In this document: positions 11,438 through 44,283 of the stretch, piece by piece
Layout of the letters: the number at the start of each line of letters is the position of its first letter
Numbering within the stretch: position 1 is the first letter of the stretch
Source of the DNA: Allorhodopirellula heiligendammensis
Lineage (GTDB): Bacteria; Planctomycetota; Planctomycetia; Pirellulales; Pirellulaceae
Assembly (NCBI RefSeq): GCF_007860105.1
Contig: NZ_SJPU01000003.1
Location: 558,001 to 622,000 of the forward strand
Direction of reading: 5' to 3'
Length of the DNA: 64,000 nt
Notes under the pieces: model-generated
Database searches by the model: none
Seen by the model: only the letters and a program-made list of their open reading frames with translations
What the model was told of the DNA's origin: nothing
Program-made: the position numbers and the translations under genes

Positions 11438-13549
11438 TCAGAGAGATTGCCTCGTCGGCCGTTCGCACACATAGAGCAGGACAACGGACCTCGCTGCGGC
11501 GAGGTAGTGATTGCTCGTCACCTCCACGGCTTGCTCCCACGGAACGATGTCCGCTGGGCTATCCAGGGCCGTATCAATCCACCGACGCCAGTGCCCACTT
11601 TCAAGTGCTGGCAACTCGAAGGTAAGCGGCTCCCAGTAGGCATTCAGGATCCAATGGAAAATGAGTTCGCCGTTATGCAGTTCGCCACCTAAGGCGATAC
11701 AGTGTGACGCATCGCTCCAGTCCGGCTGATGCAAACGAACTCCATGCCACGCTTTCTTGGCTTCGCGCAACATCGTGTTCACGCTGATTCGCTGCTGTTC
11801 ATGTTCGGGATCACGCAGTCTCCGGCGGGCACTCAATAGGTCGACGAATCGATGAACGTCGGCGTGCTTCTCCAAGTCTGTCCAGTCGAACCAACTCACT
11901 GGATTGTCCTGACAATAGGCGTTGTTGTTACCTCGCTGCGTGCGGCGGACCTCATCGCCCATTGTGATCATTGGGATGCCCAGTGACAGCATCGTTGTGG
12001 TGAGAAAGTTTTTCACCTGACGGTTTCGTAGTCGCTCGATCTGAGGATCATCGGTCGGGCCTTCAATGCCGCAATTCCAACTGCCATTGTTATCTGTCCC
12101 ATCGCGGTTGGCTTCCCCATTTGCCTGGTTGCGTTTCGCGTTATAAGAGACGAGGTCGTTCAGCGTGAATCCGTCGTGGCAGGTCACAAAGTTGACGCTC
12201 TGTTCAGCTTCTCGCTCCTTATGACCGTAAAACTCTGGGCTGCCCACAATGCGATCGGCAATCCGGCGAACGGAGCCGCCTTCACCGCGAAAGAAATCGC
12301 GGATGTCGTCTCGGAACCTGCCATTCCACTCACGCCACGAATCACCAACGAAATCCCCTACCTGATACAGTCCGGCGGCATCCCAAGCTTCTGCGAACAG
12401 CTTGATGCCCGCCAATTCAGGTGCCGATTCGATATCCCACAGAACAGGCGGGTTGGGGTGTGGTTGTCCCGAGCTATCCCGGGCCAGGATGGATGCCAAG
12501 TCAAATCGAAAGCCATCGACATGCATCTCCTGAACCCAATAGCGTAGGCAGTCAATGATCATGCGGCGGACAACTGGATTGTCTGCGTTCAGCGTATTTC
12601 CACAGCCACTGTAGTTGGCATAATGCTTGCCTCCATTCTCCAGGTGGTAGTACGTCTGGTTGTCGATGCCACGAAAGCACAGTGTCGGACCCGATTCATC
12701 ACCTTCAGCAGTATGGTTAAAGACAACGTCAAGGATCACTTCGATGCCCGCTCGATGAAGTGCTTTGACCATGTCGCGAAACTCATCGACCATTCCGAGT
12801 GGCCCCGGACGCGAGCTATATGCCTGATGTGGGGCAAAAAAGGAAATGGGTGCGTATCCCCAATAATTCACTTTGCCAACCGGTGCATCAAGTGCATCGA
12901 ATTGAAAGACAGGTAATAACTCGACGGCAGTGATGCCAAGTTGCTGCAAATAAGGGATCTTTTCGATCAAACCCGCGTAAGTTCCGCGTCTGTTGTCATC
13001 CAGCCCGGAGTTCGGGTGCTGCGTGAAGCCCTTCACGTGCATTTCGTAAATGATCGTCTGAGCGGCAGAACGGCGGATAGGTTCGTCGCCCTCCCAATCG
13101 TAAAGGCTCACGTCGACAACGACACTTTTCATGGCCAAAGCAGAGTTTTCGCTAAATCCTTTCGCGGCACCGCGGCAATAGCCTTGGGGTACCACGACTC
13201 CGCGACCGTACGGATCAAGCAGGACTTTCGTGGGATCGAAACGCAACCCGCGTTCAGGCTCATTGGGACCGTTGACGCGATAACCATAGAGTTGGCCGGG
13301 CTCCAAATCAGGCACGAATACGTGCCAATAGTGATAGGTGCGATTCGCAGTTGGGTGCAGAGCTATGGTCCGTACGGGATACGGGTCCGCTTCATGCTCG
13401 AACAATAAGAGCTCGACACTGGTGGCCCGACGCGAGAACAGGCTGAAGTTCACGCCGCCTGCTTGAACCGTTGCACCCAGCGGATAACTGTGCCCAACCT
13501 CGCTTGAACGAGCTTGAACTGCCAGACCTTGTGATTGAGAATCGAGCAT
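11438..13549 (-). CDS. glgX: Glycogen debranching enzyme GlgX (GH13, isoamylase type)
   Basis: This 703-residue protein hydrolyses alpha-1,6 branches in limit dextrins made during glycogen breakdown. It has an N-terminal beta-sandwich (CBM48-like; residues about 15-130) and a GH13 barrel with IEVILDVVFNHTAEG, the nucleophile region DGFRFDLASIL (D350), the acid/base region LFAEAWD (E387) and FVTCHDGFTLNDL. Length and motif order are typical of GlgX/TreX. It lies 48 nt after the kinase/solute-binding fusion gene in the same direction; the gap contains short direct repeats. No other glycogen gene is adjacent. Confidence 0.95.
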   Translation of the reverse strand: MLDSQSQGLAVQARSSEVGHSYPLGATVQAGGVNFSLFSRRATSVELLLFEHEADPYPVRTIALHPTANRTYHYWHVFVPDLEPGQLYGYRVNGPNEPERGLRFDPTKVLLDPYGRGVVVPQGYCRGAAKGFSENSALAMKSVVVDVSLYDWEGDEPIRRSAAQTIIYEMHVKGFTQHPNSGLDDNRRGTYAGLIEKIPYLQQLGITAVELLPVFQFDALDAPVGKVNYWGYAPISFFAPHQAYSSRPGPLGMVDEFRDMVKALHRAGIEVILDVVFNHTAEGDESGPTLCFRGIDNQTYYHLENGGKHYANYSGCGNTLNADNPVVRRMIIDCLRYWVQEMHVDGFRFDLASILARDSSGQPHPNPPVLWDIESAPELAGIKLFAEAWDAAGLYQVGDFVGDSWREWNGRFRDDIRDFFRGEGGSVRRIADRIVGSPEFYGHKEREAEQSVNFVTCHDGFTLNDLVSYNAKRNQANGEANRDGTDNNGSWNCGIEGPTDDPQIERLRNRQVKNFLTTTMLSLGIPMITMGDEVRRTQRGNNNAYCQDNPVSWFDWTDLEKHADVHRFVDLLSARRRLRDPEHEQQRISVNTMLREAKKAWHGVRLHQPDWSDASHCIALGGELHNGELIFHWILNAYWEPLTFELPALESGHWRRWIDTALDSPADIVPWEQAVEVTSNHYLAAARSVVLLYVCERPTRQSL

Positions 13550-13551
13550 AC

Positions 13552-13605
13552 GAGTGGCCGAATGAAGTATGAGTGGCCGAATTAATCAGCGGGCGAATTA
13601 ATCAG
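13552..13605. repeat. Short overlapping direct repeats between kinase and glgX genes
   Basis: A 12-nt unit GAGTGGCCGAAT occurs at 13552-13563 and 13571-13582, and a second 12-nt unit CGAATTAATCAG at 13578-13589 and 13594-13605. The second pair reaches into the last codons and stop of the kinase gene. The pattern looks like local slippage or duplication at the gene end. Confidence 0.7.
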
Positions 13606-15940
13606 TAGCTGGCGCTGCCCACTGATCTCCCCAACTCGTGTAAAGATCGTGAAGAAAAGCCTTCCAATCGGCAGCAGTTCGAGTGGCGGGATAGGGAGCA
13701 GGTTGCATCGGCTCGGGGGCAGACCAGACGACTTCGAACTGACCATCGTGTCGGATTTTGCCAATCCGTGGCGTCTTAAAGCAGTGCTGGGTATCCGGTT
13801 CGATTCGAATGTGACCCTCCGGAGCGGCCAGCCGCTCATTCAACATCGCCCGAATGACTTTTTTCGGGGCGATGGTTTGAGCTTCCCGAACGGCCTGTGC
13901 CCACAGTTGAACTCCCACATAGGCGGCTTCCATCGGATCCGAAACGACGCGCTGCGGATAACGCTGCGTCACTCTTTCGACGAACGCATTGTTTTCAGGT
14001 AGGTCGAGCGACTGGAAATAGGTTAATGCGGCATAATCACCCTCCACGTTTTCAATCGAAAGACTGCGCAGTTCTTGCTCACCCATGCTGAATGACAAGC
14101 ACGGAATATCAGCTGATCGGATATCTGCTTGACGCAGCGCACGGAAGAAATCCGTGTTTGAATCACCCGCAATGGCGCAGAGAATCATATCTGGTTTTGT
14201 TTTGATGATCTCACGAACCACAGGATCAAACTCGGGACTCGATAGCGGCACATACATTTCTCCCACCACGTTTGCGCCCACCGTCGCAACGTGATCTTGG
14301 ATGATCTCACTAGCGGCGCGAGGAAAAACGTAATCCGATCCGACGATGAAAAAGCGTTTCTTCCCGAGCTCTTCGATGGACCAATTGAGGGCTGGAATAA
14401 TCTGCTGATTCGGGGTGGCACCCATGTAAATGATGTTGGGTGACGTTTCCATGCCTTCGTACTGCACGGGATAAACCAACAGGTTGTCATGTTTTTCAAA
14501 AATAGGACGGACGGTTTTGCGACTGGCCGACGTCCAGCAACCGAATACCGCACAGACCTTTTCTTCGACGATAAGCCGTTCCGCTTCCATCGCGTAGGTT
14601 TCGGTGTCGGACCGACCGTCTGCTACGATTGGCTTGATGGGACGGCCCAACAGGCCACCCGTGTTATTGATTTCCTCGATCGCCATGAGCGTGGCGTCAA
14701 CAACGCTGGTTCCGCTTGTCGACATCGTTCCGCTGAGCGATTGCAGAACTCCCACCTTGATTGGCTCACCTTGCGGGACGACCGCACCGGCTGAGGTGTC
14801 ACCCGCAAAATGATGTATGGTCATCGCGATCATAGCTATCACCAACAGCAACGCGGCCCCACCAGCAACGATGGCCCGGAAATTTACCCGCGGCGGTGAC
14901 GGAGTGGGTTTCACGGCGGCGTGCGATGAGCCCGATTGACTGGGAAGATCAATTCTGATTTCCCCCGACAATGCTGCCACGACGGATTGGAGATCGGCCA
15001 GCATCTCCTCAACCGACTGGTAGCGATCGGCGGGTGCCTTCGCCAAGGCGCGAGCAATGATATCAGCACAAGCCGAAGGGATGGATGGATCGTTAACACG
15101 GGGGTCTGGGATGGTCTTCGTGCAGTGAGCGAGCATCACCTGAACAGGACCGCCCGAGTCCTGAAAGGGGCTTTTACCAGTGAGCAGACAGTAATAGGTT
15201 GCTCCCAGTGAATAAATGTCGCTGCGGGCGTCCACATTCAAACCCTGACACTGTTCGGGACTCATGAAATAGGGCGTGCCGATGACCGTTCCCGACTGCG
15301 TCAGATGCGCCGCTGTGAGCGGGTCGGATTCGGACAATTTTACCAGTCCAAAGTCCGTCACCTTCACTCTGTCGTCGGCCGCACGAAGTAAGTTCGCAGG
15401 TTTCACATCTCGGTGCACCAGACCAACTCGGTGAGCCGCTGAAATGCCGCGACATGAATCGATCAGGATGCGAGTTGCCTCGAGTGGCGTTTGCGCACCG
15501 GATTTTTTTAGCTCGTCAGCAATGCTGCCGCCCGACAGTAGTTCCATGACTAAGTAGGGGGTCGCTCCCTCCAGCCCCACCTCGTAGATCGTCGCCACGT
15601 TGGGATGACTCAGTCGACCCGCTGCCCGCGCTTCGGCTCGAAACCGATTGACAAGAACTGAATTTGCAGCAAATCGCTCTGGCAATACCTTGATGGCGAC
15701 GTTGCGCTCGATATGTGGATCGATCGCCTCGACGACAATTCCCATTCCTCCTTGGCCGATCGTCTTGATGACTTGGTACTTGCCAAGAATCTTGCCGACC
15801 CACTGCTGGGGAATACTACCGAACTGTTCGAACGTATCGTCGTCATTCCAGGCCATGCTCCTGGTTGGACCCATTGACAAGTTCGCGTCTGATTCGGGCA
15901 CCATGGGCGGCGGGTCCCCTGACGGTTGATTCGTTGTCAT
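13598..15940 (-). CDS. Ser/Thr protein kinase fused to urea/amide-type solute-binding domain
   Basis: This 780-residue predicted membrane receptor kinase has a cytosolic kinase domain at about 54-320: glycine loop IGQGGMG (61-67), VAIK lysine K84, HRDVKPAN (177-184), DFG (196-198) and a SPE in place of APE. A Pro/Ser-rich linker leads to one membrane segment (about 356-376). Residues 392 to about 770 form a type I periplasmic-binding domain of the UrtA/AmiC/FmdD kind, with IKVGVLQSLSGTM, INNTGGLLGR, VFGCWTSASRK and VYPVQYEGMETSPNIIYMGA. Binding of urea or a short amide outside would then set kinase activity inside; ligand and targets are inferred. The ATG at 15940 has AAGG before it; the TTG at 15961 is rejected. 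It precedes glgX. Confidence 0.9.
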   Translation of the reverse strand: MTTNQPSGDPPPMVPESDANLSMGPTRSMAWNDDDTFEQFGSIPQQWVGKILGKYQVIKTIGQGGMGIVVEAIDPHIERNVAIKVLPERFAANSVLVNRFRAEARAAGRLSHPNVATIYEVGLEGATPYLVMELLSGGSIADELKKSGAQTPLEATRILIDSCRGISAAHRVGLVHRDVKPANLLRAADDRVKVTDFGLVKLSESDPLTAAHLTQSGTVIGTPYFMSPEQCQGLNVDARSDIYSLGATYYCLLTGKSPFQDSGGPVQVMLAHCTKTIPDPRVNDPSIPSACADIIARALAKAPADRYQSVEEMLADLQSVVAALSGEIRIDLPSQSGSSHAAVKPTPSPPRVNFRAIVAGGAALLLVIAMIAMTIHHFAGDTSAGAVVPQGEPIKVGVLQSLSGTMSTSGTSVVDATLMAIEEINNTGGLLGRPIKPIVADGRSDTETYAMEAERLIVEEKVCAVFGCWTSASRKTVRPIFEKHDNLLVYPVQYEGMETSPNIIYMGATPNQQIIPALNWSIEELGKKRFFIVGSDYVFPRAASEIIQDHVATVGANVVGEMYVPLSSPEFDPVVREIIKTKPDMILCAIAGDSNTDFFRALRQADIRSADIPCLSFSMGEQELRSLSIENVEGDYAALTYFQSLDLPENNAFVERVTQRYPQRVVSDPMEAAYVGVQLWAQAVREAQTIAPKKVIRAMLNERLAAPEGHIRIEPDTQHCFKTPRIGKIRHDGQFEVVWSAPEPMQPAPYPATRTAADWKAFLHDLYTSWGDQWAAPATD

Positions 15941-34169: not shown

Positions 34170-34398
34170 TCGCCGTCGGGGAGGACTCGATCCCCATGCT
34201 CCCCTTTCTGTCCTCGTCGGATCCGCCTATGCTGAGACGAGACAATAGGTCGGGCGTCCGTGGCATGATGTGGTTATTACAGTGGCGGTTGCGTCAGCGG
34301 TCAGGACATCGCGTCGACGTCAGATTCGGATTTTGTTCTTTTCGGTATTCCTCCAGGGGACTGCGGGCTCAGTGATCACCATCCCAGCCACTCACCGA

Positions 34399-35472
34399 AT
34401 GAGTTTTCGATCAGTTCATCCGTTGATGCAAGTCATCGCGAGTGTGTTTGCGATTCTGGTGGCGACGGTGAACGCGGACGCGCAAATTCCGGAAGTGTTT
34501 CATCCAGCGGGACCGGCAGCCGAGTCGATAGCCGATTTATTTTGGTTGGTCATCGCTGTCTGTAGCGTGATCTTTCTGGTCGTGACGGGCACACTCATCG
34601 TGTTCATTCATCGGTTCCGTGAGCGTGCGGACGATGGAGAAACTGAGCCGCCCCAGTTGTACGGCAGCCAACCGATCGAGCTTGCGTGGACGGTTGCTCC
34701 CCTAATGATCGTGTTGGTGTTGGCGTTGGTCGTCATCCGGTCGGTAGTCGATCTCAGGGGGGAGCCACCTGCTCAGAACGCCGAGCGTGTGCGTGTGGTG
34801 GGGCACCAATGGTGGTGGGAATTCGAATACCCTCAACATGGATTCACGACCGCCAATGAGTTAGTGATCCCAGTCAGTGATGAGGCCACGAATCGACCAG
34901 TCTATTTGCAACTTGAGTCCGCCGATGTCATCCATAGTTTCTGGGTGCCGAGGCTGGCTGGTAAAACTGACTTGATACCTGGCAAGACGAACCAGATGTG
35001 GATTCAGGCTGATCAGGAGGGCACGTTTGCGGGTCGCTGCGCGGAGTATTGTGGAACGCAACACGCTAAAATGTTGATCCGTGTGCGTGTCGTTTCGCCT
35101 GCGGATTATGCGACATGGATTTCGCACCAGCAGCAGAATGCGCTGCCACCCAGTACCGAGCGTCCCGCTGAATCGCCCTCGGAAACAAAAACAACAGGTG
35201 CTCTCGCAGGGCACGCCCGGTTCATGGAACTGGCGTGCGCCAATTGTCACACCATTGGAGGCACGCATGCGACTGGGAAATTCGGGCCGGATCTTACTCA
35301 CTTGATGAGTCGAGAAACATTGGCTGCGGGGATTATGGACAATGATCGGGAGCATTTGACGCGGTGGATCAAGGATCCCAACTTGGACAAGTCCGGGTGC
35401 CGGATGCCAGATATGCGGTTATCGGATACTGATGTCAAGCAAATCGTCGACTACATGATCACGTTGGAGTAA
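34399..35472 (+). CDS. coxB: Cytochrome c oxidase subunit II with fused cytochrome c domain
   Basis: This 357-residue protein has a signal-like segment (1-29), two membrane segments (about 37-65 and 92-117), a cupredoxin domain with the CuA site (H179, C214, E216, C218, H222, M225), and a C-terminal cytochrome c domain with CANCH (C280, C283, H284) and a downstream Met (CRMPDM). It accepts electrons from the reductase side and passes them to subunit I; the fused haem makes it a caa3-like oxidase. The ATG at 34399 is preferred over a GTG at 34270 that would precede the leader. It opens a nine-gene operon, with 3 nt to the next gene. Confidence 0.95.
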   Translation: MSFRSVHPLMQVIASVFAILVATVNADAQIPEVFHPAGPAAESIADLFWLVIAVCSVIFLVVTGTLIVFIHRFRERADDGETEPPQLYGSQPIELAWTVAPLMIVLVLALVVIRSVVDLRGEPPAQNAERVRVVGHQWWWEFEYPQHGFTTANELVIPVSDEATNRPVYLQLESADVIHSFWVPRLAGKTDLIPGKTNQMWIQADQEGTFAGRCAEYCGTQHAKMLIRVRVVSPADYATWISHQQQNALPPSTERPAESPSETKTTGALAGHARFMELACANCHTIGGTHATGKFGPDLTHLMSRETLAAGIMDNDREHLTRWIKDPNLDKSGCRMPDMRLSDTDVKQIVDYMITLE

Positions 35473-35475
35473 ACC

Positions 35476-37140
35476 ATGGCGATTGCCGAACCCACCATCG
35501 AATCGCCCGCGCCGCCTCTGGTCACGCGGTTGCATGGATGGGTGACGACGGTGGATCATAAACGCATCGGCTTGATGTACCTGATGATGAGTTTGTTTTT
35601 CCTGGTTCTGGGAGGCTTGGAAGTTATCTGGATCCGCATGCAGTTGTGGTCGGCCAATAACACGCTCGTCGAAGCCGACACGTTCAACCAGCTGTTTACA
35701 ATGCACGGCACCACGATGATTTTTTTCGTCGTCATGCCGATGATCGCAGGGTTTGCCAACTACCTCATCCCCCTGATGATCGGTGCCCGTGATGTGGCAT
35801 TTCCGCGACTCAATGCGTTCGGGTTTTGGATGTCGTTATTTGGCGGCATGATTCTTTACCTCAGCTATTTTACGGGCGAGGCTCTCTATGGCGCCGGTTC
35901 TGCGCCCGATGTGGGGTGGTTCGCGTATGCGCCGTTAACTTCTCCCGCGTATTCACGCGGCAGCAGTGTCGACTATTGGATTCTGGCGACGCTCGTCAGC
36001 GGCGTGGGGACGCTCACTTTCGCGATCAATCTGATTGCCACGATCGTGTCGATGCGTGCACCGGGGATGGCAATCGGTAAGCTGCCGTTATTCGTGTGGA
36101 TGATGCTGGTCGATGCCTGGTTGATCGTGTTTGCATTTCCGCCCTTCACCGCCGCCCAAGTTATGTTGTTGATGGATCGACATTTGGGGGCGCACTTCTT
36201 CGATACCCAGGCAGGAGGCTCTGCGATTTTGTGGCAGCACCTATTTTGGTTTTTCGGGCATCCCGAGGTATACATCATGGCCTTGCCAGCCTTTGGAATC
36301 ATTTCGGAAGTGGTGCCGGTATTTTCTCGCAAAGTCATCTTTGGCCACACCACGCTGGCGATGTCGACGACTGCGATTGGATTCATCAGCATGGGGGTGT
36401 GGGCCCATCACATGTTCACTGTCGGCTTGAACGACGGGTTGGATGCATTCTTCTCAGCGGCGAGTTTTTTGATCGCGGTACCCACCGGAATTAAAATTTT
36501 CAACTGGACGGCGACGCTGTACGGAGGTCGCTTGCGGTTGCACACCCCGATGTTGTTTGCACTTGGGTTCCTATCGATGTTCTTGATTGGCGGACTGACG
36601 GGAGTGATGTTAGCGGCGGTTCCAGTCGACTGGCAGGTTTCCGATAGTTATTTCTTAGTCGCCCACTTTCATTATGTATTGTTCGGGGGGAGTTTGTTCG
36701 CGTTGATGGCAGGCCTTTACTATTGGTACCCCAAAGCCACTGGGCGGATGCTCGATGAGACGTGGGGTAAATGGCATTTTTGGCTGCAATTGATTGGCTT
36801 CAACCTGACGTTTGCACCCATGCACATCTCGGGGCTGATGGGCATGCCCCGGCGTGTTTACACCTACCAGGCCGGACAGGGCTGGGAGATTTGGAATCAA
36901 ATTTCAACGGTGGGCGGTTTCGTGATGGGGGCCGGTTTTGCGGTTATGTTCGTCAATTTGCTGTGGTCGCTTCAGCGGGGCAGGATTGCCGGTGACGATC
37001 CTTGGGACGCGTGGACGCTAGAGTGGGCGACGAGTTCGCCGCCAGCATCCTATAATTTCGAAACAATACCCATCGTTCGAAGTCGACGCCCCCTTTGGGA
37101 TAAAAAGCACCCTGAAGATCCGGACTGGATACATGAGTGA
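35476..37140 (+). CDS. coxA: Cytochrome c oxidase subunit I
   Basis: This 554-residue polytopic haem-copper oxidase subunit (about 12 membrane segments) reduces O2 to water while pumping protons. The active-site residues are present: HPEVY with H262 and Y266 (the Cu-ligand/Tyr pair), the CuB pair H311-H312 in WAHHMFTVGLN, and H397/H399 in the haem motif VAHFHYVLFGG. The HPEVY tyrosine indicates an A-type enzyme. The N-terminus has the usual GWVTTVDHKRIGLMY phrase. The last 8 nt overlap the subunit III gene. Confidence 0.97.
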   Translation: MAIAEPTIESPAPPLVTRLHGWVTTVDHKRIGLMYLMMSLFFLVLGGLEVIWIRMQLWSANNTLVEADTFNQLFTMHGTTMIFFVVMPMIAGFANYLIPLMIGARDVAFPRLNAFGFWMSLFGGMILYLSYFTGEALYGAGSAPDVGWFAYAPLTSPAYSRGSSVDYWILATLVSGVGTLTFAINLIATIVSMRAPGMAIGKLPLFVWMMLVDAWLIVFAFPPFTAAQVMLLMDRHLGAHFFDTQAGGSAILWQHLFWFFGHPEVYIMALPAFGIISEVVPVFSRKVIFGHTTLAMSTTAIGFISMGVWAHHMFTVGLNDGLDAFFSAASFLIAVPTGIKIFNWTATLYGGRLRLHTPMLFALGFLSMFLIGGLTGVMLAAVPVDWQVSDSYFLVAHFHYVLFGGSLFALMAGLYYWYPKATGRMLDETWGKWHFWLQLIGFNLTFAPMHISGLMGMPRRVYTYQAGQGWEIWNQISTVGGFVMGAGFAVMFVNLLWSLQRGRIAGDDPWDAWTLEWATSSPPASYNFETIPIVRSRRPLWDKKHPEDPDWIHE

Positions 37141-37744
37141 AACCATCGCCGTGAGCGAGCTATCAACACCCCAGCAGCCCTGTCCTCCACCGGACAGCGT
37201 CACGCTTTCGGCTACGCGAGTGGGCGTGCTCACCTTTCTGTGTTCGGAAGCTGTGTTTTTTGCGACATTGCTGATTGCTTACGTGACCTATCGAGGGGCG
37301 ACACTTCATGGTCCGACTCCCGAAACATCACTAAGTTTGCCCCTGGCGATTTTGGATAGCGTGTTTTTGCTCAGTAGCAGTGTGGCGATCGGATTGGCGG
37401 TCAAAGCGTTTGATCGCAGCGATGTGCCCCGGTTCACGCGATGGATGCTGGTGACCATTGTGCTGGGAAGCTTGTTCCTGTGTGGGACCGCATACGAATG
37501 GTATCAATTGATTGTGCATGATGGGCTGACGATTAGCCGCAATTTATTCGGCACTACCTTTTTCACATTAATCGGCTTTCATGCAGCGCACGTGACGATC
37601 GGTTTGGGTGTGATGAGTTTGTTGCTCTGGAAACGGCGACGAGGAGATCTGGCAGTCGATAGCGAGGCACCTGAAATGGTGTCATGGTACTGGCACTTGG
37701 TTGACACGGTGTGGATCGTGATCGTGTTAGTGGTGTATTTGTAG
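37133..37744 (+). CDS. coxC: Cytochrome c oxidase subunit III
   Basis: This 203-residue protein has five membrane segments and the subunit III phrases GVLTFLCSEAVFFATLLIAY, GTTFFTLIGFHAAHVTIG and WYWHLVDTVWIVIVLVVYL. It is the short form without the first two helices. It stabilises subunit I. It overlaps the coxA gene by 8 nt and is followed after 30 nt by an unknown membrane protein. Confidence 0.93.
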   Translation: MSETIAVSELSTPQQPCPPPDSVTLSATRVGVLTFLCSEAVFFATLLIAYVTYRGATLHGPTPETSLSLPLAILDSVFLLSSSVAIGLAVKAFDRSDVPRFTRWMLVTIVLGSLFLCGTAYEWYQLIVHDGLTISRNLFGTTFFTLIGFHAAHVTIGLGVMSLLLWKRRRGDLAVDSEAPEMVSWYWHLVDTVWIVIVLVVYL

Positions 37745-37774: not shown

Positions 37775-38599
37775 ATGAGTGAAGTCAACGAAGAGTCGGA
37801 ATCAATTGGCATGCCTGCACCTACGGCATGGCCGATGGTATCCGCTGCAGGCGTGGCGTTGGCGGCGGTGGGTATCGCAACCAATCCGTTCATTTCAGTG
37901 GCGGGCGTGATGGTGTTGATGGTCGCCATTGGAGGATGGTTGCGTGAGTTGACGCCTGGTCGAGGGGAAATCGAGGAGACGTGGGTTCCCGTGGATCAGC
38001 GTGCTCGCGAGGTCGTTGCGTCGTCGCGCCGTGTTGCCCAGCCACGCGCTGGCCTACCCGGCAACCGCAGTCACTTTCCCGAACGAGTGCACACCTATGC
38101 CTCCGGCGTGGTGGGCGGGCTGCTTGGCGGTGGCGTGATGGCTGGTACTGCCATGTTGTATGGTGTCGTCAGTGGCCGCGGAATTTGGTACCCCATCAAT
38201 ATGCTCGCGGGAATTGTCCTGACACGATTTGACGACGTCAGCAAGTTGGAACTGGAGCGGTTCAGCGTGACCGCGTTCATCATCGCGTCGCTGTTGCACC
38301 TGACTGCTTCCGCGTTGGTCGGCTTGTTTTTCGAGATTGTCTTGCCGACGCTGCCAAAGTCACCTGTATTTTGGGGCGGCGTGGTCGCCCCTCTGATGTG
38401 GACGGGCGTGGTCTATGCGTCCATCGGCATTCTCAATCCGCTGATGAGCGAGCACATTGTGTGGTCGTGGTTCATTGCATCCCAGTTCGCATATGGATTG
38501 ACAATGGGGATCTACGTCGTGAACGCCAAGAAGGTGCCGGCCAGCCACATCGAGGGTGCTTCAACCGCTGACGGCCGCGATCATGAGAGCCAGTCATGA
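37775..38599 (+). CDS. Unknown polytopic membrane protein inside the respiratory operon
   Basis: This 274-residue protein has about seven membrane segments. Residues 15-60 (two helices ending in GGWLRELTPGRGEIEE) look like a subunit IV-type two-helix module. After a basic loop come more helices (about 110-260) with YASGVVGGLLGGGVMAG and FEIVLPTLPKSPVFWGGVVAP. Neither part has a haem- or metal-binding motif that I can name. It overlaps the dihaem cytochrome gene by 4 nt, so it is almost certainly made with the oxidase/reductase. A structural subunit of an oxidase-reductase supercomplex is a reasonable guess. Confidence 0.75.
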   Translation: MSEVNEESESIGMPAPTAWPMVSAAGVALAAVGIATNPFISVAGVMVLMVAIGGWLRELTPGRGEIEETWVPVDQRAREVVASSRRVAQPRAGLPGNRSHFPERVHTYASGVVGGLLGGGVMAGTAMLYGVVSGRGIWYPINMLAGIVLTRFDDVSKLELERFSVTAFIIASLLHLTASALVGLFFEIVLPTLPKSPVFWGGVVAPLMWTGVVYASIGILNPLMSEHIVWSWFIASQFAYGLTMGIYVVNAKKVPASHIEGASTADGRDHESQS

Positions 38600-39306
38600 A
38601 GTGGAGTGATATCTCATTTCTGATCGTGCTTGCGGTCGTCACAGGCTGTGGAAAACCAAACCCGGCGGATCGCTATGTTCGTCCGGATCAGATCAGCAAT
38701 TTTGAAACTCTCTTCGGTCAGAACTGTGCGGGTTGCCATGGAGCAAGCGGGCAATTCGGACCAGCACCCCCGCTCAATGATCCCTTGTTTCAAGCGATCA
38801 TTTCCGACGAACAACTGACCCACCTCGCCGTGGCCGGCCGAGAAGGCACAATGATGCCAGCCTTTGACAAGGCCCAGGGCGGGACACTGACCGACAAGCA
38901 GATTGAGATTCTCGTCCAGGGTATTCGAGCTCGCTGGGCCGGACCTCCCCCGCGGTTAGCAGAGAAGCTTCCCGCATACCAGGTTGATGTCGACGATCCA
39001 GCGGGGATTCGGCAGGGAAGCGTCGCCACCGGAGCGGACCTGTTTGCGACTGTCTGTGCGAGGTGCCATGGCGATGAGGGGCACGGTGGTGACGCTGGTT
39101 CCATTTCCGGCCGGGTGTTTGGCCAACTCATCAGCGACCAGCTTTTGCGACGGATCATCATCACCGGCCGCGCGGACTTGGAAATGCCGAATTTTATCGA
39201 CAGTGGTATGGAGTCAGAGTTGGGGCGACCATTGACCGCGCCCGAGATTATCGACATCGCGACCTACTTGCGAGCGATTCAACAGGAGAACGACGAAAAT
39301 GAATGA
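38596..39306 (+). CDS. Dihaem c-type cytochrome lipoprotein
   Basis: This 236-residue exported protein has a lipobox-like VTGC near residue 17-18 and two cytochrome c domains with CAGCH (C44, C47, H48) and CARCH (C154, C157, H158). Candidate axial methionines lie in TMMPAF and LEMPNF. The best guess is an electron carrier between the Rieske/cytochrome b complex and the oxidase, anchored on the outside of the membrane. It overlaps the neighbours by 4 and 8 nt, so stoichiometric synthesis is likely. Confidence 0.92.
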   Translation: MKWSDISFLIVLAVVTGCGKPNPADRYVRPDQISNFETLFGQNCAGCHGASGQFGPAPPLNDPLFQAIISDEQLTHLAVAGREGTMMPAFDKAQGGTLTDKQIEILVQGIRARWAGPPPRLAEKLPAYQVDVDDPAGIRQGSVATGADLFATVCARCHGDEGHGGDAGSISGRVFGQLISDQLLRRIIITGRADLEMPNFIDSGMESELGRPLTAPEIIDIATYLRAIQQENDENE

Positions 39307-39829
39307 CCAACGCAATGGTGACTGCCCCTGCCAGGGTGGTGGGTCGGTTTCGCGACGGGGTGCCTTGGAGTGGGGGACTTACGTGCTCGGTGGCTTGGCG
39401 GCGGCTGCTACTGGAATCCCGATCGTGGGATTTTTACTGGGGCCATTGACCAAGCATTCCGACCGGTGGATCGCCGCGGGAACCGTCACCGAATTTCCTG
39501 AAGGTCAAACGCGGCTGGTCGACTTGGTCAATCCGCTGGGCAAATCAGACGACGGTGAAAGTGGCAAAATTGCGGTCTACGTCCGCCGTGTGGCGGGTGA
39601 GCAGTTTCAAATCTTCGCGGTCAATTGCACTCACCTGGGGTGCCCGGTCAATTGGATTCCAACGGCTGGTCTCTTCATGTGTCCCTGCCATGGAGGCGTG
39701 TTTTACGACGACGGTTCGCATGCCTCGGGGCCACCGCCGCGGGGACTCTATGAATATGAACATCGCATCGAGGAAGGCCGGTTGATGGTCAAGCTCGGTC
39801 ACCTCCCCACGCTGCAGCAGCCCGCATGA
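39299..39829 (+). CDS. Rieske [2Fe-2S] protein of the quinol:cytochrome c reductase
   Basis: This 176-residue protein has the two cluster-binding boxes CTHLGCP (C110, H112, C115) and CPCHGG (C128, H131), a membrane segment at about 28-50 and a twin-arginine-type start SRRGALEW (R19-R20). An extra CPCQGGG lies at residues 9-15, ahead of the RR pair. It takes one electron from quinol at the Qo site and passes it to cytochrome c. It overlaps the cytochrome b gene by 4 nt. Confidence 0.95.
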   Translation: MNDQRNGDCPCQGGGSVSRRGALEWGTYVLGGLAAAATGIPIVGFLLGPLTKHSDRWIAAGTVTEFPEGQTRLVDLVNPLGKSDDGESGKIAVYVRRVAGEQFQIFAVNCTHLGCPVNWIPTAGLFMCPCHGGVFYDDGSHASGPPPRGLYEYEHRIEEGRLMVKLGHLPTLQQPA

Positions 39830-41433
39830 ATACTCTCACCGCCATCAAGAAGAGAGCAATCGCATCGGTTGGCTGGTTGGAATCGAGGCTGCAGCTGCGG
39901 CAGTCGATCTGGCCGGTGATGCGGCACCCGATCCCTGCCGAAGTCGCCCACAAGAAAGGGTGGTGGTATGTCTTCGGCAGTGTGACAATGACGTTTTTTC
40001 TGTTGCAGGTGGCCACCGGAATCTGTCTGGCAATGGTTTATGAGCCGACAGCTCAATCCGCGTATAACAGCCTGATCGAGCTCAACGAGGTGACGCCGCT
40101 GGGATGGCTGATGCGATCGATTCACTATTGGTCGGCCACCGGGATGGTCGTCATGCTGATCGTTCACATGACTCAGGTCTTTTTAATGGGAGCGTTCAAA
40201 TACCCCCGTGAAGTCACCTGGTTATTCGGGGTGGGATTGTTGGTCCTGACTTTGGGGCTTGCCTTTAGTGGGCAGGTGCTGCGTTTCGACTCCGATTCCT
40301 ACTGGGGTGTGAGCGTTGCCGCTGCCGCCGCAGGACGCGTGCCCTGGGCCGGGCCATCGATCGTGCACTTGATCTTGGGTGGTGAGATCATTGGTACCAG
40401 CACGCTGGGGCGATTCTACGCACTGCATGTGTTCGTGTTGCCGGCGTTATTGGTTCTGCTCCTCGTCGGGCATATTTATTTAGTCGTGAAACGCGGCATC
40501 TCAGAACCGCCTGATCCAGACGAGCCAGTCGACCCTGCCACTTACGACGCCAAGTACGAAAAGCTGCTCGACCGCGGTGTGCCTTTTTTTCCGCATGCCG
40601 TGTACCGGGATGGGATCGCCTGCGCTGCTGCGGTATTGATCGTGGTGGCGTTGGCTGTGACGCTCGGTCCCAAGGGACCGTTGGCATTGCCGGATCCCAC
40701 GATCGTGCACGCGGAGCCGCGTCCTGATTGGTACTTCCTGCCTCTGTTCGCAGTGGCGGCGTTGTCACCGGCATCCATGGAAACGTTTTTGATGCTGGGC
40801 ATGCCTGTCCTCGGTTTGATGGTCCTCGTCGCGATCCCGTTTGTCTCGGGCTCGGGACAACGCAGTGCCAGTCGTCGTCCGGTCGCCGTGCTGTGTGTGA
40901 CGGTGATGTTCGTGTGTTTGACACTGTTGGGCTGGTACGGTCAGGTCTCGCCGTGGTCACCCCAGATGGACGCATGGAGCAGTGAGGCGGTTCCGACTCG
41001 AATCGTGCAACGTCTATCACCACTTGAATTGCAAGGTGCCGTGGTACTGCAGAATAAGGCGTGCCGGAACTGTCATGCGCTCGATGGCAAGGGCGGCCAA
41101 CGCGGGCCAGACTTGACTGACGTGGGCACCCGACTGAATCGTGATGCGATGATTCGACAAGTTGTCCAAGGCGGTGGAAACATGCCCGCCTACGGTCAGA
41201 AGCTCAGCAGCGCAGAGACGAAGGCATTGGTTGCCTTCTTGATGGCGATGCGGCCAGCGGGGCGACCACCGGCAATGATTCCGGCGGCGCCGGCCCCATT
41301 GCAAGGCGATCCAGTGCAAGTCGAACCAGTGCAGACTGACACAGTGCAGGCTGACTCAGTGCAAACGGCTCCGCTAGAGGCGGCAGCACCGACTGCTCCA
41401 ATCGACGCCGACTCCGCAAAATCGGCATCATGA
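39826..41433 (+). CDS. Cytochrome b fused to a C-terminal cytochrome c domain
   Basis: This 535-residue protein joins the two halves of cytochrome b6/subunit IV type in one chain. The haem-b ligands are H100/H114 (13 residues between) and H201/H216 (14 residues between, as in b6-type proteins). The Qo motif is P300-D301-W302-Y303, a PDWY variant of the usual PEWY. Residues about 400-490 form a cytochrome c domain with CRNCH (C413, C416, H417). A Val-Gln-rich repeat (VQVEPVQTDTVQADSVQ) and an Ala/Pro tail end the protein. It replaces a separate cytochrome c1. It overlaps the CtaG-fusion gene by 4 nt. Confidence 0.93.
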   Translation: MNTLTAIKKRAIASVGWLESRLQLRQSIWPVMRHPIPAEVAHKKGWWYVFGSVTMTFFLLQVATGICLAMVYEPTAQSAYNSLIELNEVTPLGWLMRSIHYWSATGMVVMLIVHMTQVFLMGAFKYPREVTWLFGVGLLVLTLGLAFSGQVLRFDSDSYWGVSVAAAAAGRVPWAGPSIVHLILGGEIIGTSTLGRFYALHVFVLPALLVLLLVGHIYLVVKRGISEPPDPDEPVDPATYDAKYEKLLDRGVPFFPHAVYRDGIACAAAVLIVVALAVTLGPKGPLALPDPTIVHAEPRPDWYFLPLFAVAALSPASMETFLMLGMPVLGLMVLVAIPFVSGSGQRSASRRPVAVLCVTVMFVCLTLLGWYGQVSPWSPQMDAWSSEAVPTRIVQRLSPLELQGAVVLQNKACRNCHALDGKGGQRGPDLTDVGTRLNRDAMIRQVVQGGGNMPAYGQKLSSAETKALVAFLMAMRPAGRPPAMIPAAPAPLQGDPVQVEPVQTDTVQADSVQTAPLEAAAPTAPIDADSAKSAS

Positions 41434-43757
41434 GTCAGGCCGATTGGGTCGCGATCCTGAGTTCGTGGCAGTTCAGTCCGATGGTTCTGCTGGGCCTGAC
41501 GTTGAGCACGATCATGTACATGCGGGGTTGGTGGCGGTATCGCCAACGACGAACGTCACCGTTCTCGCTGGGACAGGCTGTGTCTTATGTGGCGGGGATG
41601 CTCGTCGTTTTCGTCGCCCTCCAGTCGCCGCTGGACACCCTGGCTGGGTTTTCTCTGCAGGTCCATATGGTTCAGCACTTGCTGTTGATGATTGTCGCAC
41701 CACCGCTACTTCTTTACTCCGCTCCCATGCTTCCGATGATTGCGGGGCTTCCCAAGCGATTGCGCGACGGGTGGATCACGCCATTTGCAACATGGCGTCC
41801 ACTTCGCCGGGGCATCGCGAAACTCGTCCATCCGGCATGGGCGTGGTGCCTGTTTGTGGCATCGCTATGGATTTGGCACGCCCCTTATTTTTATGGCCTT
41901 GCGCTTGAGTCAGATGTGTGGCATCGGTTTGAGCATGGGTGTTTTTTAGCCACATCGGTCTTGTTCTGGTGGCCGGTCGTGCAGCCGTATCCTTCCCAGC
42001 CGGTTCTATCCCAATTTTGGCTGGTCCCGTACCTGTTCTTAGCAGGGGCTCAGGGCACCGCGTTGGCAGGCATTTTGACCTTCTCGGACCACGTCTTGTA
42101 CGCGAACTATGAGACGACGCCCAGCCTGTGGGGAATCGATCCGTTGACTGATCAAGCGGTCGCCGGTGCCATCATGTGGGTGCCGATGTCACTCGCCTTT
42201 TTGATCGGGCTGGTCTGCGTGGTGAGTCGACTGATGGCAGGGGGACCAACGGAGCGGCGGAGGAACACGCGTCGCCTTTCACCGCAGCTGGTGGCTGGCC
42301 AGCGAAACTTGCCTGTTCACAATCAGGCAGCCAGGACATCGTTCGCTCTCGCCGCACCATTCATCCACGCGGCTAGCCCAACTCGCATCCACCGACTATT
42401 TCGCTCTGGTACCACACGGATGTTATTGCGTGTGGGCATGTTTGTGTTGGCATTGCTCGTCATTATCGATGGGATTCGCGGCCCGCAAGTCTCGCCCCTG
42501 AACCTCGCCGGCGTGCTGCCATGGATCCATTGGCGCGGTATCCTGGTGCTGACCCTGCTCGTGGGAGGAAACTTTTTCTGCATGGCGTGTCCGTTTACGT
42601 CATTGCAAAAGTGCGTGGCCTGGCTAGCGAGGGTTTGTCATGTGCCGTTGCCGCGGCGTCGGCAGTGGCCGATAACGCTCCAAAATAAATGGCTTGCCAT
42701 TGGGACGCTGGCTCTCTTTTTCTGGGCGTACGAGGCGTTTGCATTGTGGGACCGCCCCTTTTGGACTGCGATGATCGCGATCGGTTTCTTTGTCACCGCG
42801 GTTGGGTTCGAATTGTTTTTTGTCCACGCACCTTTCTGTAAGTATGTCTGTCCGATCGGACAATTCAATTTTGTGCACTCGATGATCTCACCTACCGAGA
42901 TCGCTGTGACCGACTCCTATGCATGCTCGAATTGCAGGAGTAAAGACTGCATCGTGGGAAATGCCAGCTCGCCGGGCTGCCAGACGCAGTTGTTCCAACC
43001 GCGCAAGCATGGGAACATGGATTGCACCTTTTGCTTTGACTGCGTGACGGCCTGCCCGCACGATAACGTCGCGTTGATTTCGGTGCCCCGCACTTTGGAC
43101 TTGACGAGTGATCGGTCGCGTTCGAGCATCCGGCGATACAGCGAGCGTCCGGATTTGGCGGCCGTGATTGTCTTTCTTTTTTTTGCCTCACTGGTGAATG
43201 CAGCCTGGATGACAGGCCCGGTGTTGGCTTGGGAAGACCAGCTCGTGCAATGGCTCGGGGTGGGGCGGTTGCCGGTACTGACATTGGGGCTATTCGCTGC
43301 GCTGATCGTCGGTCCGTGGATCATTGTGACAACCATGACGCGACGATCTGAAATTGCTCGCTTCGCTCCGGCGCTCATACCACTGGGCTTCGGCATGTGG
43401 CTGGCGCACTACTCATTTCATTTTTTTACCAGTGCCGATGCGATACAGGTAGCGGGAGCTCGCATGTGGAGCGACTGGACAGGTGGCGAGTTTTCAGCCG
43501 GTCCCGTGGCGTGTTGTTGCTGTCGGGCGGACTCGATTGCGTGGTTGCTGCCGCTGGAGCTGGTTTTTCTGGGGGTGGGATTCTGTATGTCGTTCGTGGT
43601 GAGCTACCGGATTGCGCATCGCGAGTCTGAGCAAAATCGAAGGGGATGGCGACCACTGCTGCCCTGGATCTGTTTAATGGTTGTCTTCTATTTCAGTTGC
43701 GTGTGGGTGCTGTTGCAGCCGATGCAAATGCGCGGTGCCTTAATGACGGGCATGTGA
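41430..43757 (+). CDS. CtaG oxidase-assembly domain fused to NapH/CcoG-type ferredoxin protein
   Basis: In this 775-residue protein, residues 1 to about 270 match the caa3-type CtaG copper-insertion membrane protein (HMVQHLLLMIVAPPLLLYSAPM; WHAPYFYGLALESDVWHRFEH). After an Arg/Ala-rich linker, residues about 335-775 match polyferredoxins of the NapH/CcoG kind: CMACP (C384, C387), CKYVCPIG (C470, C474), then ferredoxin-like clusters C499/C502/C507 and C532/C535/C538/C542. Near the end lies C695-C698, four cysteines in a row. CcoG-like proteins reduce copper for cbb3 oxidases, so one chain that both reduces copper and delivers it to the oxidase is plausible. It is one uninterrupted frame. Confidence 0.88.
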   Translation: MSQADWVAILSSWQFSPMVLLGLTLSTIMYMRGWWRYRQRRTSPFSLGQAVSYVAGMLVVFVALQSPLDTLAGFSLQVHMVQHLLLMIVAPPLLLYSAPMLPMIAGLPKRLRDGWITPFATWRPLRRGIAKLVHPAWAWCLFVASLWIWHAPYFYGLALESDVWHRFEHGCFLATSVLFWWPVVQPYPSQPVLSQFWLVPYLFLAGAQGTALAGILTFSDHVLYANYETTPSLWGIDPLTDQAVAGAIMWVPMSLAFLIGLVCVVSRLMAGGPTERRRNTRRLSPQLVAGQRNLPVHNQAARTSFALAAPFIHAASPTRIHRLFRSGTTRMLLRVGMFVLALLVIIDGIRGPQVSPLNLAGVLPWIHWRGILVLTLLVGGNFFCMACPFTSLQKCVAWLARVCHVPLPRRRQWPITLQNKWLAIGTLALFFWAYEAFALWDRPFWTAMIAIGFFVTAVGFELFFVHAPFCKYVCPIGQFNFVHSMISPTEIAVTDSYACSNCRSKDCIVGNASSPGCQTQLFQPRKHGNMDCTFCFDCVTACPHDNVALISVPRTLDLTSDRSRSSIRRYSERPDLAAVIVFLFFASLVNAAWMTGPVLAWEDQLVQWLGVGRLPVLTLGLFAALIVGPWIIVTTMTRRSEIARFAPALIPLGFGMWLAHYSFHFFTSADAIQVAGARMWSDWTGGEFSAGPVACCCCRADSIAWLLPLELVFLGVGFCMSFVVSYRIAHRESEQNRRGWRPLLPWICLMVVFYFSCVWVLLQPMQMRGALMTGM

Positions 43758-43758
43758 G

Positions 43759-44283
43759 ATGCGGCCGGTCCTACCTCACACTCCGCTCGTGGTTTTACTC
43801 GTCGTTGGCTTGATGACTTCTGCGATGGCATCCCGCGCGATCGCCGACGGTGGCAAGGTGCAGTGGAGTGGTATTGTGGACGGCCGTCGTTATACGGTCT
43901 TCACGTCGCCCACACCGCTTCAGCCTGGGATGGTGGACATCAGCGTGTTGATCCAAAACGAATCGGATGGACGCGTGATGCGAGACGCAACGCTGAGCGT
44001 CAGGTGTCAAGACCGGCAGAGCGAGCGGGTCGTAGAGGGCCGTGCCAGTCAAGCCAATTCAACAAATCGGCTGCTGCAGTCGGCGAAGCTAGATTTGCCC
44101 GTGGCGGGGCAATGGGAAATCGAGATCTGCGACCTTGGGGCAAAGCCCTCGAGCGGACCGCTCGTCAGCTTTGTGGTTATGGTCGCGGATCAACGATTCA
44201 GTATCCCATGGACAGCAGCGCTGGTGACAGCGCCGCTGTGGTTCATTGCCATTTATCTACTTCGGGAACGGATCCGGCGTTAG
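43759..44283 (+). CDS. Small anchored protein with immunoglobulin-like domain (FixH/YtkA-like)
   Basis: This 174-residue protein starts 1 nt after the CtaG fusion. It has a signal peptide (about 1-27), a beta-rich region with YTVFTSPTPLQPGMVDISVL and LPVAGQWEIEICD, and a C-terminal membrane segment (about 150-168) followed by RERIRR. The layout resembles YtkA/FixH-like domains of copper-related respiratory assembly genes, but no metal motif is visible. Its stop overlaps by 4 nt the stop of the convergent porin gene. Assignment to oxidase assembly rests on operon position. Confidence 0.7.
   Translation: MRPVLPHTPLVVLLVVGLMTSAMASRAIADGGKVQWSGIVDGRRYTVFTSPTPLQPGMVDISVLIQNESDGRVMRDATLSVRCQDRQSERVVEGRASQANSTNRLLQSAKLDLPVAGQWEIEICDLGAKPSSGPLVSFVVMVADQRFSIPWTAALVTAPLWFIAIYLLRERIRR

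Follow-up and report, generated by a model that had tools for sequence, protein, structure and literature searches.

A CtaG domain and a NapH-like polyferredoxin in a single chain: a candidate assembly factor for a caa3-type oxidase

How copper reaches CuB in Caa3_CtaG oxidases, and in which redox state, is called an open question in PMC9145763. A single gene of the planctomycete Allorhodopirellula heiligendammensis bears on this question. It lies at 41430-43757 of the window, by which we mean the whole stretch of 64,000 nucleotides that was analysed (contig NZ_SJPU01000003.1, positions 558,001 to 622,000), and it encodes one chain in which a CtaG half is followed by an iron-sulfur half. What could such a chain do, and is it real? 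The first-pass annotation had seen here a CtaG copper-insertion domain and a CcoG/NapH-type polyferredoxin in one frame, and the presence of both domains within 41430-43757 was borne out by Caa3_CtaG and NapH/MauN matches. The reading frame is uninterrupted from the ATG at 41430 to the TGA at 43755-43757. Caa3_CtaG (Pfam PF09678) covers residues 29-269 with a score of 188.1 bits (cut-off 27.7), and the NCBIfam model TIGR02163 (NapH/MauN) covers residues 371-547 at 41.1 bits against a cut-off of 213.05, a score that marks the iron-sulfur half as a distant relative of NapH/MauN and not as a member. Fer4_5 was found at residues 364-401 slightly below its Pfam cut-off (21.3 versus 22), and the score for the CtaG equivalog model TIGR02737 missed the cut-off (60.7 versus 279.35 bits). 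No copper-transport domain and no FixG C-terminal (FixG_C, Ig-like) domain appeared in the Pfam scan of the fusion. Its parts are as follows.

41430..43757, + strand: CtaG-polyferredoxin fusion, 775 amino acids, 16 predicted transmembrane helices (open reading frame, Pfam, NCBIfam, AlphaFold2, charge bias)
41430..42236, + strand: CtaG half, residues about 1-269, 7 helices (PF09678, conservation, topology)
42237..42407, + strand: cytoplasmic linker of variable sequence and positive charge, residues about 270-326 (charge, model confidence)
42408..43148, + strand: NapH-like half, 4 helices and two cytoplasmic [4Fe-4S] sites at the motif level (TIGR02163, cysteine conservation, topology)
43149..43754, + strand: C-terminal extension, 4 helices (conservation, topology)

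The NapH-like half holds twelve cysteines (C384, C387, C470, C474, C499, C502, C507, C517, C532, C535, C538 and C542), and the extension carries an HxxxH (H660, H664) and an MxM (M765, M767) together with M594 and W759.

To find the fusion elsewhere we scanned one genome per species, with two short peptide patterns of the CtaG half as seeds (fusions without those patterns would be missed), and took the best 80 of 252 relatives. At least 37 loci besides the window carry the fusion, 32 at full length and 5 running off contig ends; 35 of them come from the best 80 of 252, one from a genome of the same family (G121) and one is the acidobacterial locus L141, and a record that had been fetched twice (L034 and L074) was counted once. 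By record name the carriers are mostly Planctomycetota and Verrucomicrobiota with some Acidobacteriota, and single fused metagenome-assembled genomes (MAGs) are labelled Myxococcota (L081) and Candidatus Binatota (L115). In the alignment of full-length fusions (33 rows, with the window included, the doubly fetched record present twice and L141 left out) the iron-sulfur half keeps its 12 cysteines in every row, and H79, M80, H83, H150, H165, H169 and D241 of the CtaG half and M594, H660 and H664 of the extension are likewise invariant; M765 is kept in 31/33 rows, and M767 and W759 in 32/33 each. Recurrence in independent assemblies confirms that the two-domain fusion is real and rules out the assembly join by which, according to the first-pass annotation, the frame might have been explained away. 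A join, a frameshift or a functionless chance fusion might be argued from its rarity in a sample of the phylum, where at least 3 of 294 genomes, the window's included, match over both halves (a lower bound, since only three candidates were scored in many genomes). With at least 37 further loci in several phyla and invariant cofactor residues, we regard that explanation as almost certainly wrong. One short form was also seen: a close relative of the fused L067 protein, at 2086-3132 of L080, ends after its CtaG domain and 58 bases before the contig end, and could be a frameshift or a genuine shortened protein.

The AlphaFold2 model of the fusion (mean predicted local distance difference test score, pLDDT, 87.6; predicted template modelling score 0.73) is confident except for the linker at residues 272-316, where pLDDT falls below 50, and the last three residues. 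With the 16 helices taken from this model and their ends set by hand, the mean loop charge over 32 sequences places every cytoplasmic loop above the adjacent outer segments: outer segments range from -1.16 to +0.19, the C-terminal tail has +0.56, and inner segments range from +1.34 to +6.25, the last value being the mean net charge of the linker segment 267-326. Both termini are accordingly predicted to lie outside and the linker and all 12 cysteines in the cytoplasm, and the CtaG histidines, M80, D241, M594, H660, H664, M765 and M767 are predicted at the outer side; in the model W759 sits in the last helix, close to where it ends on the outside. Cu(I) can be held by His, Met-x-Met and Trp, as in CusF. 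No solved PDB chain matched the fusion in structure searches, and the A3 search against the PDB returned short ferredoxin matches only (best E 0.0022).

What kind of polyferredoxin is the iron-sulfur half? Judged by sequence it is NapH-like and not CcoG, so that of the earlier CcoG/NapH-type label the second part stands and the first does not. Its best named models are NapH. Membership in CcoG was tried and rejected: in a search of the window's own genome (E<=0.001) the CcoG model TIGR02745 did not match the window protein, and the sole gene that it matched is a separate, true CcoG elsewhere in that genome (449.7 bits). In a profile comparison with CcoG only a 104-column cluster core aligns to the iron-sulfur half. 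On the fused protein of Pan216 (the L060 genome) the CcoG model reached 24.4 bits, far under its cut-off of 316.7, and it exceeded that cut-off in 1 of 18 other genomes (TBK1r, a fusion carrier). The genomes searched, many of them MAGs, numbered 18 for the CcoG model, 18 for CtaG, 12 for cytochrome b and 9 for the iron-sulfur half.

The half also occurs by itself. Close unfused relatives (L035-L039), which are 38-40% identical, retain the C-terminal extension of the fusion, and M594, H660, H664, M765, M767 and W759 are invariant in all 12 rows of the wider family of unfused relatives. The L035 gene adjoins a Pfam YtkA-like gene, and CuA-domain proteins are encoded beside the unfused relatives L031 and L032. 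Among far relatives, N-terminal YHS domains score over the cut-off in L014, L016, L020 and L022 and below it in L015, L018 and L024; no YHS domain was found in L030, L012 and L017. As pointers to copper these domains were given little weight, because NapG-like and NapA-like genes turn up at loci of this same deep group. A search of plasmids gave 10 distant polyferredoxin records. A composite protein was noted in L040 as well: at 12623-13717, SCO1/SenC and cytochrome c are combined in one chain with a YHS-like end that scores below cut-off, and a NapG-like ferredoxin and a far relative of the iron-sulfur half are encoded nearby.

The first-pass annotation had placed the gene at the end of an operon of caa3 and bc type, and this was confirmed, with the addition that a gene for a small membrane protein still follows. 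The order in the window is CoxB, CoxA, CoxC, CoxD-like protein, two-domain cytochrome c, Rieske protein, cytochrome b, fusion and small membrane protein. The fusion is tightly placed, since its ATG shares bases with the cytochrome b stop codon (ATGA) and the downstream gene begins 1 base past its own stop. Its neighbours are these.

34270..35472, + strand: CoxB, caa3-type subunit II with a C-terminal haem c motif (named by reading the translation; homologues in synteny)
35476..37140, + strand: CoxA, subunit I (named by reading the translation; homologues in synteny)
37133..37744, + strand: CoxC, subunit III (PF00510, 70.3 bits)
37775..38599, + strand: CoxD-like protein, 274 amino acids (PF12270, 28.0 bits versus 26.9)
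38596..39306, + strand: two-domain cytochrome c (PF13442, two stretches)
39299..39829, + strand: Rieske protein (PF00355, 31.5 bits)
39826..41433, + strand: cytochrome b with a C-terminal cytochrome c domain (PF00033, 152.2 bits; PF13442, 45.1 bits)
43759..44283, + strand: small partner with a signal or transmembrane segment, a beta-sandwich domain and a C-terminal transmembrane segment, weakly FixH/YtkA-like (synteny, Pfam, AlphaFold2)

As the cytochrome b ends in a cytochrome c domain, both the bc part and the caa3 part of the operon have a built-in c-type haem; cytochrome b homologues of comparable length are present in syntenic operons. In the CoxD-like protein (37775-38599) the Cyt_c_ox_IV match is limited to the first 60 of 274 residues, and homologues occur in syntenic operons. 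Five records (L034, L127, L128, L130 and L131) were left out of synteny counts and trees as repeat fetches. Of the 32 loci whose upstream DNA extends for at least 1.5 kb, 23 have cytochrome b directly upstream of the fusion. The search for other fusions proposed earlier did yield them, but they do not always accompany a cox/bc operon. In six of seven genomes whose fusion sits apart from cytochrome b (L062 and L071 left out), an operon-type cytochrome b was found elsewhere; the seventh is G298, a genome of 1.8 Mb. The fusion is the sole CtaG in 9 of 12 carrier genomes tested. Among the carriers are the cultured, non-pathogenic Blastopirellula marina DSM 3645 and Acidobacteriaceae bacterium KBS 96, of which the latter has a second CtaG.

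Where a full-length locus offers 600 or more bases of downstream DNA, as 30 do, the family of the small partner comes after the fusion in 20. This count takes in only open reading frames of less than 500 amino acids, and L060 and L115 were scored as misses because their BLAST matches sit in longer frames. Compared with Pfam at E<=1, ten members of the family gave YtkA in 5 cases and FixH in 2 (best E 0.014 for YtkA and 0.00042 for FixH); the window's own small partner had no Pfam match above cut-off. The family profile matches an alignment of four partner-gene proteins from the loci of unfused relatives (E 1.4e-7), one of which is a Pfam YtkA match. The AlphaFold2 model is a beta sandwich flanked by two helical segments (pLDDT 86.0), and a fold search found the copper proteins CrdA and P19/FtrA among many beta sandwiches at E about 0.001-0.008. 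This likeness is only a hint, because the E-values are weak, many beta sandwiches match and the top two are unrelated.

The genome of the window holds three oxidase operons with three assembly arrangements, namely the fusion, a lone CtaG and CcoG. A second CoxB/CoxA-like operon is followed by an unfused CtaG of 234 residues, and the CcoG gene, in a cbb3-like operon, adjoins genes for an apparent fused CcoN/O and for a CcoP-like protein, which were named by their position and haem motifs; L147 8653-13330 and L148 9361-14002 contain the CoxB/CoxA-unfused CtaG operon and the cbb3-like-CcoG operon. There was no Cox11 match in this genome.

Did the two halves come together once? No open reading frame in the fetched DNA of 45 unfused CtaG loci was BLAST-linked to the iron-sulfur half, and a distant split gene would be missed there because many of these loci are short. 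Alignment A2 has 50 rows (the window, 35 fused proteins and 14 of 47 unfused ones, from the window plus 82 references). In the CtaG tree nine unfused Acidobacteriota proteins group inside the fused clade, a placement that suggests one fusion with later loss in Acidobacteriota. A CtaG tree with the fused rows held together was not rejected (approximately unbiased test, p-AU 0.162), and in the tree of the iron-sulfur half the close unfused relatives fall neither clearly inside nor clearly outside the fused rows. As tree entries, L080 and L082 were scored as CtaG alone though they end near or at contig ends. Eight of the nine unfused Acidobacteriota CtaG genes follow a window-type cytochrome b, and the ninth (L097) precedes cox genes. 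An iron-sulfur-half homologue was found in 2 of the 9 genomes that carry these unfused Acidobacteriota CtaG genes, as a second, fused gene in the L124 genome (L141) and as an unfused one in the L105 genome (L142). The L097 genome is the seventh of these in which the search gave no homologue of the half.

Taking these results together, we favour, with a probability of roughly 45%, a reading in which the fusion is an assembly factor for the caa3 oxidase and its redox half provides the electrons with which copper is handled at the outer face. On that side of the membrane the CtaG half would hold copper and hand it to the oxidase, probably at CuB. Electrons of a cytoplasmic donor, or of quinol, would enter the NapH-like half through its two cytoplasmic [4Fe-4S] clusters and pass on to the conserved His and Met residues that the C-terminal extension presents at the outer face. 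There Cu(II) would be reduced to Cu(I), or copper kept reduced, and the CtaG half of the same chain would receive the Cu(I). The small beta-sandwich protein may be an outer-face partner, comparable with CcoH beside CcoG or with YtkA (CtaK) in Bacillus. In favour of this reading we count the requirement for CtaG in B. subtilis, the invariant outer-face residues and cluster cysteines, the frequent position behind cytochrome b, the status of sole CtaG in 9 of 12 carrier genomes, the lack of a Cox11 match in the window's genome, the predicted sidedness, the YtkA-like or CuA-domain neighbours of unfused relatives, the weak likeness of the small partner to copper proteins and the reported cupric reductase activity of CcoG. 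The fusion itself, its conservation and its gene context are direct observations and its sidedness is a prediction; copper binding, copper reduction, the flow of electrons, their donor and the target site are what we infer. The more specific proposal that the single chain is cupric reductase and copper insertase at once is more tentative. Here electrons of the quinol pool or cytosol would cross the membrane inside the polyferredoxin half and reduce Cu(II) at an outer-face His2/Met3 site, and the Cu(I) would go from there to the CtaG half and directly on to the caa3 oxidase. If true, a dedicated, oxidase-specific system would exist in parallel to that of CcoG and cbb3, and both would coexist in the window's genome. 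That a CtaG and an iron-sulfur carrier are naturally fused suggests that both activities belong together, and the fusion offers one gene in which joint electron supply and copper delivery can be tested.

Several observations weigh against the assembly-factor reading. The clusters lie on the side of the membrane opposite the proposed copper sites, with no cross-membrane relay identified, and the part of CtaG itself in CuB or CuA assembly is unsettled (PMC9145763). The fusion stands away from cytochrome b in 9 of 32 loci, and the two best fold matches of the small-partner model are unrelated proteins. The outer His/Met site may serve electron transfer in general, since it is equally invariant in unfused relatives, a number of them from loci with NapA/NapG-like genes, and NapG-like and NapA-like genes, all below curated cut-offs, lie near far relatives. 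In six Acidobacteriota (L083-L087 and L089) CtaG stands alone in an operon that, to the extent covered by the contigs, is of the same kind, and searches of their genomes found a homologue of the iron-sulfur half in 0/6 and CcoG in 0/6. The half is thus either dispensable in part of the lineage or replaced there by something unrecognised. Because of this clade and of the far relatives near nap-like genes, other explanations have to be weighed.

The chief rival is that the iron-sulfur half works as a NapH-type quinol dehydrogenase. The electrons that it brings to the outer face would then serve respiration, or would reduce a newly assembled oxidase for the first time (at haem, CuA or cytochrome c), and would not go to copper ions; the fusion would merely dock the half at the oxidase. 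This agrees with NapH as the source of the best named models, with the NapG/NapA-like genes (under cut-offs) or CuA-domain proteins near far relatives, and with extension His and Met residues that are not specific to the fusion. However, no NapG-type, NapA or other nap gene was recognised in the window operon (the one fused operon that was scanned), the partner domain would be an assembly factor and not a respiratory subunit, and the halves stay in one chain in the nine loci away from cytochrome b; we consider this role unlikely, if still worth serious attention. The redox half could instead act as CcoG does, reducing imported copper on the cytoplasmic side, while Cu(I) is carried by the CtaG half either outward or, from within the membrane, into subunit I. 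CcoG reduces Cu(II) with two [4Fe-4S] clusters (PMC7558416), all 12 cysteines of the fusion, four extra ones (C384, C387, C470 and C474) included, are on the predicted cytoplasmic side, and the CopD fusion CtiP has been proposed to import copper (PMC9145763). Against this stand the missing CcoG match of the window protein and the score of 24.4 versus 316.7 bits in one fused homologue, the restriction of the CcoG alignment to the cluster core, the absence of a Pfam copper-transport domain from the fusion and the predicted outer position of the conserved CtaG histidines, which together make such a route distinctly improbable. It has also to be asked whether the redox half keeps CuA cysteines or Sco-type chaperones reduced and has no direct contact with copper. 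CuA assembly does require thiol reduction (PMC9145763), three Sco-type matches were found in the window's genome, and the Sco-cytochrome c protein of L040 lies near a far relative. Yet none of the three Sco matches is on the window's contig and the fusion has no conserved outer-face cysteine pair (C695-C698 is variable), so we see in this a long shot.

How, then, does the fusion compare with known systems? NapH and MauN have four helices with cytoplasmic [4Fe-4S] sites. The same holds for the iron-sulfur half, according to the model and the charge bias; unlike NapH/MauN, the fusion has a long four-helix C-terminal extension with HxxxH and MxM. Another comparison is with FtrABCD, in which FtrD is a polyferredoxin and FtrA is the P19-type protein that the model of the small partner weakly resembles. 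The FTR1 permease was matched by none of the seven window-operon proteins scanned, and it is not annotated in either of two plasmid polyferredoxin neighbourhoods.

In B. subtilis a CtaG homologue is required for an active caa3 oxidase, and conserved His and an Asp at the outer face of CtaG are the proposed metal ligands (PMC9145763, PMC8239418); the caa3 enzyme of the ctaG mutant keeps its haem, and copper in the medium gives no rescue (PMC9145763, PMC13344008). The fusion is like this protein in its domain match, seven helices and outer-face His and Asp, a comparison made at that level and not residue by residue, and in its place near the end of a cta-type operon. Unlike B. subtilis CtaG, it scores below the equivalog cut-off and is extended by an iron-sulfur half some 450 residues long. 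CcoG is a polyferredoxin with two [4Fe-4S] clusters that is reported to be a cupric reductase and supports the cbb3 oxidase (PMC7558416). Like CcoG/RdxA/FixG, the fusion contains a membrane polyferredoxin with two [4Fe-4S] sites (at the motif level) beside an oxidase operon, and just as CcoG lies beside a FixH gene, the fusion precedes a weakly FixH/YtkA-like one. Unlike CcoG, it has no TIGR02745 match and no FixG C-terminal domain, and it aligns over the 104-column core only; CcoG homologues such as YccM are also without FixG_C (PMC7558416). A 2026 paper on B. subtilis returns to the notion that a dedicated cupric reductase acts locally while the oxidase is built, and describes Firmicutes as having no CcoG homologue (PMC13344008).

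Searches of open-licence literature aimed at a CtaG-polyferredoxin fusion gave no description of one among the titles and beginnings of abstracts listed. The known CtaG fusion is CtiP of Corynebacterium glutamicum, in which CopD and CtaG are joined and which serves the bc1-aa3 supercomplex and is a proposed copper importer (PMC9145763). Like CtiP, the protein of the window joins CtaG to a second membrane domain; unlike in CtiP, where the CopD-like region is N-terminal to CtaG, the polyferredoxin lies C-terminal to it. Altogether, the analysis suggests that the fusion fits a design tying electron supply to copper delivery for the caa3 enzyme, in which electrons would flow and copper would be bound within one chain. 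Ready-made comparisons are at hand in the clade of Acidobacteriota with a lone CtaG (L083-L087 and L089), which is a natural loss experiment, and in the window's genome, where the fusion can be set beside a lone CtaG and a true CcoG.

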